A stretch of DNA of 64,000 nucleotides from Eubacterium sp. GTDB taxonomy: Bacteria > Bacillota > Clostridia > Peptostreptococcales > Anaerovoracaceae. The notes beneath the pieces are model-generated. The model saw only the letters and a program-made list of their open reading frames with translations. It did no database searches and was not told the DNA's origin. Position 1 is the stretch's first letter. Every line of letters starts with the position of its first letter. The translations under genes and the position numbers were made by a program. This document shows positions 5,386 through 64,000 of this stretch, one piece after another. The stretch covers positions 1 to 64,000 of the forward strand of contig JAETRU010000004.1 in the NCBI GenBank assembly GCA_021769965.1, written 5' to 3'.

Positions 5386-5991
5386 CTACTTTTCCTTCCC
5401 CCTGCTGTCGGGTTCCCCGGCACGGTCCAGCACCTTCAGTATCTCCTTGCAGGCAAGCATCTGCCCGTAGCTGGAGACTGCCAGCCGCAGTGCCTGCTCT
5501 GTCAGCCGGACCTCATCGGCTTCCGGATCGATCATCTCAGCGATCTCACCGAAGGTACTGTCCAGTGTTTCCCCGTAGTTCCGGTAAAAATCCTCGATAT
5601 CCCGGTGCTGCATCTGATTCTTCAGCAGGATCCCCGTTTCGCTGACGCTGAGCACCTGCTTCAGAAGGCAGATCGCCGTCAGATAACCGATGTGCTCCCT
5701 GCTGTACCGCTTGCCTTTAGCTCTCGGAAGCAGGCCGCTCTTGATGTAGTTGTTGATCATGGCGGAGGTCAGATTCTCGTCACCTTCCGGCGCCAGTCCG
5801 ATGTGCTGGCGGCCCATATAGCTGATCACCTGATCCATATACAGATCGATGTCCGGGATCTGTTCCCAGTCTTCCGGTCTGCCGGAAATCAGCCTGTCCC
5901 GCAGCGTCTCCATCTGCTGTCTGCGCAAAACCGCCCGGTCTTCCGTCATGGTTCCGCCTGCCGGCGCTGCTGTCTGTTCTGTTTTGTCCAT
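5386..5991 (-). CDS. DUF1836 domain protein
   Basis: DIDLYMDQVISYM...MINNYIKSGLLPR...KRYSREHIGYLTAICLLKQVLS. Confidence 0.75.
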   Translation of the reverse strand: MDKTEQTAAPAGGTMTEDRAVLRRQQMETLRDRLISGRPEDWEQIPDIDLYMDQVISYMGRQHIGLAPEGDENLTSAMINNYIKSGLLPRAKGKRYSREHIGYLTAICLLKQVLSVSETGILLKNQMQHRDIEDFYRNYGETLDSTFGEIAEMIDPEADEVRLTEQALRLAVSSYGQMLACKEILKVLDRAGEPDSRGKEK

Positions 5992-34900: not shown

Positions 34901-34935
34901 CTTTCATTATATCAAAATCTCTGTTATAATGAAAG
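34901..34935. promoter_or_regulatory. Palindromic bidirectional promoter (TTTCAT-17-TATAAT on both strands)
   Basis: CTTTCATTATA-N13-TATAATGAAAG, an 11-bp perfect inverted repeat. Confidence 0.6.
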
Positions 34936-34987: not shown

Positions 34988-35257
34988 GTTGGGCGAAAGT
35001 CCTGGATTCTGACCAAAAAACCCAACTTTTCTCTGAGATGTTGGGCTAAATACAGTGAAATCTACCCAAAAGCCCAATTTCACAGCTCCGAGCGGCCTTC
35101 AAATCCGCGATAGTTGGGCTTTTTGTTGTAAATCTCTGAGAAAAGCCCAATGTGCAGGAGGAAAAGTTGGGTTTTTTGCTGCAATTCCTTGAGAAAGACC
35201 CAACCTGTGGAAGCAAGACCTGGGCTTTTCACCATCAAATGCGCCAAAAAGCCCAAC
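34988..35257. repeat. Array 1: five 39-bp GTTGGGC...GCCCAAC inverted-repeat units
   Basis: Units at 34988-35026, 35040-35078, 35113-35151, 35166-35204, 35219-35257; linkers 13, 34, 14, 14 nt. Confidence 0.9.
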
Positions 35258-63775: not shown

Positions 63776-64000
63776 GATAGGTTTCTTTGCTGATGAAAAG
63801 GAAGAAAGCCCAACTTTTACTTTTACGCGTTGGGCTTTCTATGGATATTTATTGCAAAAAGCCCAACTATCACAGGCTCAGAAGGTCTTTGGCGTTGTTC
63901 TGAGCCGTGAATTTGGGCTTTTTAATGAATATTTTTGAAATCTGCCCAAGTTCTTAGATGAAAAGTTGGGCTTTTTGATAGTTTTAACTACATTTAGCCC
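63776..64000. repeat. Array 2: 39-bp GTTGGGC...GCCCAAC units, truncated by window end
   Basis: Units at 63776-63814 (degenerate left arm), 63829-63867, 63912-63950, 63965-64000+; linkers 14, 44, 14 nt. Confidence 0.88.

Follow-up and report, generated by a model that had tools for sequence, protein, structure and literature searches.

The window, by which we mean the whole 64,000-nucleotide stretch of Eubacterium sp. DNA analysed here, carries between addA and gpmI an array of five consecutive inverted-repeat units (array 1, 34988-35257). All five are on the forward strand and each is 39 nt long, as the original prediction had it: U1 at 34988..35026 with arms GTTGGGC and ACCCAAC, U2 at 35040..35078 (GTTGGGCTAAA ... 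AAAAGCCCAAT), U3 at 35113..35151 (GTTGGGCTTTTTG...TAAATCTC...) and U4 at 35166..35204 are matches to the unit pattern, and U5 at 35219..35257, with the degenerate left arm CCTGGGC, is a match with 2 mismatches. The linkers measure 13, 34, 14 and 14 nt, the same values as first read. The 34-nt central gap (35079..35112) is no irregularity, because the 73 bp from U2 to U3 are 7 helical turns; at this position other TTGGGC arrays have 83, 93 or 94 bp from unit to unit. The left arm had also been described as GTTGGGC followed by TTTT, which is correct for units 3-5 and wrong for units 1-2, where CGAAA and CTAAA follow. This difference between early and later units is a real polarity present in nearly all arrays, with first units of the form CTTGGGCTAAAT...ATCAAAAAGCCCAA and later units of the form ATTGGGCTTTTTG..TAAAT....AAAGCCCAA. 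A second array of the same family (array 2) is found by pattern match on the reverse strand at the end of the window, with a degenerate outer unit corresponding to the canonical U5 (63776..63814), units corresponding to U4 (63829..63867) and U3 (63912..63950, 83 bp to its neighbour), and the beginning of the next unit (63965..64000), which runs beyond the window end; the fifth unit is at 64018-64054 of the contig, outside the window. With up to 2 mismatches allowed, the pattern gives 16 strand-matches in the window, compared with 1.9 +/- 1.8 in shuffled sequences (maximum 8).

Upstream of array 1 there is a TATAAT hexamer on the forward strand (34925..34930) that is shared with three congeners (L055, L056, L057) and that presumably belongs to the gpmI promoter; array 1 is placed between this hexamer and gpmI. 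In the three congeners addA and gpmI are divergent and separated by a short intergenic region with the conserved TATAAT and no array. Array 1 therefore either arose in this lineage, by insertion or assembly, or was lost elsewhere.

We scanned the genome (2.99 Mb, 82 contigs) for TTGGGY-N25-RCCCAA with zero mismatches and found 52 units, with none for the reversed-pattern control. When the gap was left free between 12 and 42, there were 55 matches genome-wide (9 in the control), and those listed measure 37 nt from TT to AA apart from three, of 36, 38 and 29 nt, the last of which is nested in unit 2; the strict pattern with a gap of 8-30 gave three units, all N17. The family is therefore enriched and of nearly fixed unit length, in agreement with the original prediction, and we see neither random unit lengths nor a lack of enrichment. 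The units are grouped in about 15 intergenic arrays, and nearly every complete array has exactly five. Nine arrays could be read uninterrupted, with five units each by the arm criterion (the window array at 34988; C14 at 63776 and 90842; C16; C17; C20 at 2683 and 5901; C25; C57), and the array in C80 also reaches five once a unit whose arm is mutated is included. In C7, four units are followed by an IS110-family element (L018:8083-9587, transposase at L018:8158-9180) and then by the fifth unit. C59 carries two units and C24 three, and both contigs break off in the same IS110 sequence (at the ends of L029 and L026); the two sets of units are probably the halves of one split five-unit array. Apart from the copy in C7, the transposase turns up in the genome only as a fragment at the end of contig C59, and both known copies are therefore in arrays. 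Partial arrays occur in C20 at 66.6 kb (four units), C10 (two) and C60 (one). A clustering of the arrays on few contigs was considered, and the large contigs C18 and C21, which carry no TTGGGC units, argue against it.

The arrays are intergenic in every clear case, which bears out the earlier view that they are non-coding. Their neighbours are unrelated housekeeping genes (gpmI, addA, pfk, FTHFS ligase, coaBC, sbcD, gltX, smpB and others) in tandem, divergent or rarely convergent arrangement, and there is no obvious regulon among them. Among the neighbouring genes examined we found no candidate gene for an arm-binding protein linked to the arrays, and no Lrp gene is linked to them. Array polarity varies with respect to the genes on either side, which is what one expects of an element that acts as DNA.

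The consensus of 63 units is.TTGGGCTAAA...AAAAAgCCCAAc, with a variable interior. Between dispersed arrays the TTGGG/CCCAA arms are 96% identical, whereas identity in the interior lies close to the column background and the interiors are nearly saturated. Interiors that occupy the same position in different arrays are nonetheless more alike than those of different positions (identity of 0.39 for the same unit index and 0.34 for a different index, with 0 of 500 permutations as large), which indicates that the arrays share an ordered ancestry. The original prediction had spoken of selection on geometry rather than sequence. Its first half agrees with our data, since the geometry follows whole turns of B-DNA, and its second half does not, since the arms are 96% identical; the interior is also not free, because its A/T tracts are phased at 10.5 bp.

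Units of fixed length with a variable interior could be taken for a TIGR or CRISPR-like array that encodes guide RNAs. TIGR units are 36 nt long and most arrays have 5-15 units (PMC12045711). The TIGR pattern of two alternating 8-12-nt repeats with 9-nt spacers and a constant period is absent here, as the period is 52-54 with further values of 63/73/83/93 and the arms are inverted. The units are spread over about 15 separate loci of five instead of standing in one array beside an effector gene, the distances between units vary by helical turns, and the interiors evolve slowly in register, unlike replaceable spacers. No Nop-domain (Tas) gene (PF01798) was matched in the genome, and the same search was positive in 4 control archaea, so that TIGR-Tas is excluded and guide arrays in general are very improbable.

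It could also be supposed that the arrays act as RNA, forming hairpins in tandem, terminators that work in both directions (AAAAGCCCAAC - loop - GTTGGGCTTTT across the linkers) or a structured RNA. Array 1 does fold better than shuffled sequences on both strands (z of -3.7 and -5.7), and when a two-unit sequence model was searched in sampled genomes of the family and class, it gave weak matches, those read being ordinary terminators (AAAAGCCCAA-loop-TTGGGCTTTT) of the AAAAGCCCAAC/GTTGGGCTTTT type. However, covariation between the arms, which the original prediction had proposed as a check, is almost absent: the covariation term is 0.14, and 2 of 12 pairs show double changes in arms that are nearly invariant. 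Position 7/33 pairs in 42 of the 63 units, compared with 37 expected by chance, and in U1-U3 the stem could not extend past GGGC, where TAAA stands opposite AAAA. A terminator at the place of array 1, downstream of the presumed promoter and ahead of gpmI, would cut off expression of a glycolytic gene, the mixed polarity relative to genes speaks against an RNA element, and an RNA has no need of whole-turn spacing. The Rfam covariance models gave no gathering-score match over the whole window. We therefore regard an RNA element as improbable.

A periodicity scan of 0.5 Mb of the genome revealed arrays with other arms. The pattern TTGAGCA-N23-TGCTCAA is present in 70 units genome-wide (control 0), all but one of those listed being 37 nt long, in arrays with a period of 63 bp (L020:6678-6964 in C14, L100:16766-17117 in C6 and about 12 further loci). 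GTTTCGT-N25-ACGAAAC is present in 29 units (control 2) of 39 nt, with two exceptions (38 and 40). The 39-nt units measure 37 nt from TTT to AAA, and the family forms arrays with a period of 63/64 bp (L026:3795-4088 in C24, L099:10729-10925 in C5 and about 12 further loci). Three dispersed families with unrelated arms thus have one unit length, 37 nt from TT to AA. Further candidate arrays carry GTTCGGC, TTGACA and AGTTGTG. We noted GTTCGGC/TGCCGAA arrays with 29-31-bp inverted pairs (L025:5158-5424, L108:9755-9852, L109:499-608) and TGACA-rich arrays (GTTGACAAAAGTGACA...TGTCACTTTTGTCAAC), two of which are similar to each other (L094:1330-1563, L109:15794-16053, L101:16811-16915). A scan for arrays of any inverted 7-mer, irrespective of sequence, found 21 in a 513-kb sample that had been deliberately enriched for TTGGGC loci, and 1-2 in shuffled sequences. 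In C12 (L104:12221-12560) we also observed a direct repeat of about 63 bp in tandem copies, A/T-phased and lacking clear inverted arms.

To the extent that units are separated by other than the modal distance, the distances are not arbitrary. From unit to unit they are 53 (31 of 49), 52, 54, 63, 73, 82/83 and 93/94 bp in the TTGGGC family, 63 (32 of 37), 62, 53, 42 and 105 bp in the TTGAGCA family, and 63/64, 62, 74, 126 and 127 bp in the GTTTCGT family. The 22 non-modal distances, pooled over the three families, fall close to multiples of about 10.5 bp [R = 0.92, Rayleigh P of about 1e-8, a nominal value that assumes more independence than there is, since gaps were inherited in some arrays and the TTGGGC arrays are not fully independent copies]. 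The distances are whole turns of B-DNA, and this grid is common to three families with different modal periods.

The A/T content follows the same helical period. The power of A/T tracts at 10.5 bp averages 4.0 in arrays, compared with 0.16 in the flanks and 0.14 +/- 0.04 in shuffled sequences, although part of this power is a harmonic, because a period of 53 or 63 bp alone gives harmonics near 10.5 bp. When phased places in 0.5 Mb were ranked by the periodicity scan, most of the top ranks were TTGGGC and TTGAGCA arrays, and in some arrays of other families the phasing is weak. From dinucleotide wedge values, most arrays are predicted to be in the top 0.01-2% of 105-bp windows for curvature. 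With tracts every 10-11 bp and predicted curvature, the arrays show the traits of phased A-tract curved DNA.

Phasing of this kind raises the possibility that the arrays are strong gyrase (topoisomerase) wrapping sites similar to BIME-2, in which phased GC/AT content favours wrapping and intergenic arrays absorb supercoils. In E. coli the flanking arms of the gyrase motif have a GC periodicity of 10.75 bp, and BIME-2 elements are preferred gyrase sites (PMC6379681). The strong 10.5-bp A/T periodicity of the arrays is in keeping with this, but the gyrase motif is degenerate and about 130 bp long, and it leaves unexplained the invariant TTGGGC arms and the occurrence of three arm sequences with one unit length. 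We consider this explanation improbable, to about the same degree as an RNA element.

A stronger candidate is that the arrays are mobile palindromic repeats similar to REP/BIME, non-autonomous elements that a transposase has distributed or that recombine, and that have become homogenised as tandem copies. Their geometry would then reflect how the spreading enzyme works, and a role for the host, if any, would come second. The arrays are dispersed, intergenic, species-restricted and of several classes, with inverted sites that alternate; BIMEs likewise have several sequence classes per genome and inverted sites in alternating orientation (PMC2817692). The site of array 1 is empty in three congeners, an IS110-family element is found within two TTGGGC arrays, and IS110 elements are known to insert in REPs (PMC1525189). 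Some TTGAGCA arrays, and also GTTCGGC arrays, contain near-identical tandem units, which shows that amplification happens. On the other hand, saturated interiors together with invariant TTGGGC arms require selection after spreading, and whole-turn quantisation is not predicted by free mobility. There is no GTAG/CGTC tag, and the palindrome consists of the 6-8-bp arms alone with no conserved stem. Set against at least three families, the genome has a single Y1_Tnp, too few for one RAYT per family, and no cognate RAYT flanked by inverted repeats was found; within the 3.4-kb Y1_Tnp locus (L067) we found no TTGGGC arm, only single TTGAGC and TTTCGT/ACGAAA arms. The arrays thus show the general traits of interspersed palindromes, being intergenic, many-copy (52 + 70 + 29 exact units), alternating and regularly spaced, and lack the REP/BIME defining features that we tested. 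The original prediction assigned the arrays to no named repeat class, and the comparisons with REP/BIME and TIGR-Tas and the Rfam search leave that position unchanged. As a full account, REP/BIME-like mobility seems to us rather unlikely; a mobile origin of this kind is possible and would be compatible with a function as a scaffold, and the IS110 insertions and the near-identical TTGAGCA units fit it.

The arrays are real, strongly non-random and part of a larger set than the original prediction saw. We propose that they are scaffolds for cooperative, sequence-specific, DNA-bending proteins, with one specificity for each family, and we give this reading a probability of about one half. Each array would serve at the level of DNA as a docking scaffold for a sequence-specific protein, a dimer or tetramer, that binds paired short inverted sites (the TTGGGC-type arms, about three turns apart in a unit of 37-39 bp). 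The pairs, nearly always five and at whole-turn distances, would place all sites on one face of the DNA path, which the phased A/T tracts would bend. Cooperative binding would then wrap or fold the element of about 290 bp into a compact intergenic nucleoprotein body, and this body may influence the topology of the DNA around it, the boundaries of domains or the promoters nearby. The parallel families (TTGAGCA and GTTTCGT in this genome; TTCGACAA and TTCTAGAA in the congener G008) would serve related proteins that are built alike but differ in the DNA they recognise.

TTGGGC arrays were not recovered in the other collections searched, from which records very close to this genome may be missing. 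None was found in 60 relatives, with at most 2 chance matches per genome, or in the sampled genomes of the family and class searched with the two-unit model, and the strict unit gave 9 single matches in GTDB contigs, about the number expected by chance and none in an array. In viral contigs the TTGGGC unit gave two matches inside a gene and one chance match, TTCTAGAA matched unrelated AT-rich repeats, TTGAGCA matched within coding sequence, and GTTTCGT gave no match; plasmid and phage records, and distant blastn, gave no TTGGGC array. The congener G008 has no TTGGGC unit in a genome search and carries arrays of its own. With a period of 52-53 bp there are TTCGACAA/TTGTCGAA arrays at 31/21 and TTCTAGAA arrays at 30/22 (L130:17622-17815, L126:10972-11260 and L133:16398-16487), and the scan for inverted 7-mers also gave two looser arrays. 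No TTCTAGAA arrays were found in 149 genomes of the family, a sample that does not include G008. The flank TAACTGTGCGG is common to two G008 arrays and absent at the others. In a further congener, G005, the tandem inverted repeats are built differently, with a period of 89-95, inverted 7-bp ends, in some cases a GC-rich hairpin core, and mostly no 10.5-bp phase (L136:3084-3357, L140:785-1015, L150:1866-2082 and 5634-5921); these are a different kind of repeat. The phased geometry is thus seen in two species, the source genome and G008.

A broader and more tentative proposal, which we consider possible but not likely, is that the arrays represent an undescribed class of chromosomal scaffold in bacteria of this genus, in which related DNA-bending proteins each have one inverted-site code, each code has about 15 dispersed phased arrays, several codes coexist in a genome, and codes turn over between species like centromeric satellites while the helical geometry is kept. 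That several families of a single genome combine whole-turn spacing with conserved arms is strong evidence at the sequence level for a system of DNA architecture, one that lacks the defining traits of REP/BIME. If this is confirmed, the arrays would be a bacterial equivalent of architectural DNA that resembles satellites and evolves fast, and they would extend the picture of nucleoid organisation in these bacteria.

Operators of the Lrp type are regularly spaced and wrap DNA, with a number of inverted sites that lie whole turns apart on the same face. The arrays share this arrangement of multiple inverted sites, but they are much longer, occur in about 15 dispersed copies and combine unrelated site sequences with one geometry. 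Compared with REP/BIME, they are similar in their intergenic, dispersed, species-restricted and regularly alternating occurrence, in their several classes and as targets of IS110, and they differ in that the interior of 23-27 nt is variable, only the 6-8-bp arms are conserved and the distances are whole turns. Strong gyrase sites and BIME-2 are also intergenic, with a GC/AT periodicity of 10-11 bp over more than 100 bp, whereas the gyrase motif has no invariant arms of the TTGGGC type and no exact unit length. TIGR arrays likewise have fixed-length units with a variable interior, while here the five-unit loci are dispersed, the distances are not constant and a Nop/Tas gene is absent. The phased A-tract curved DNA of prokaryotic chromosomes shares the intergenic A/T tracts every 10-11 bp and the predicted curvature, but in the arrays this phasing is tied to conserved, sequence-specific inverted sites, to a fixed unit length and usually to five units.
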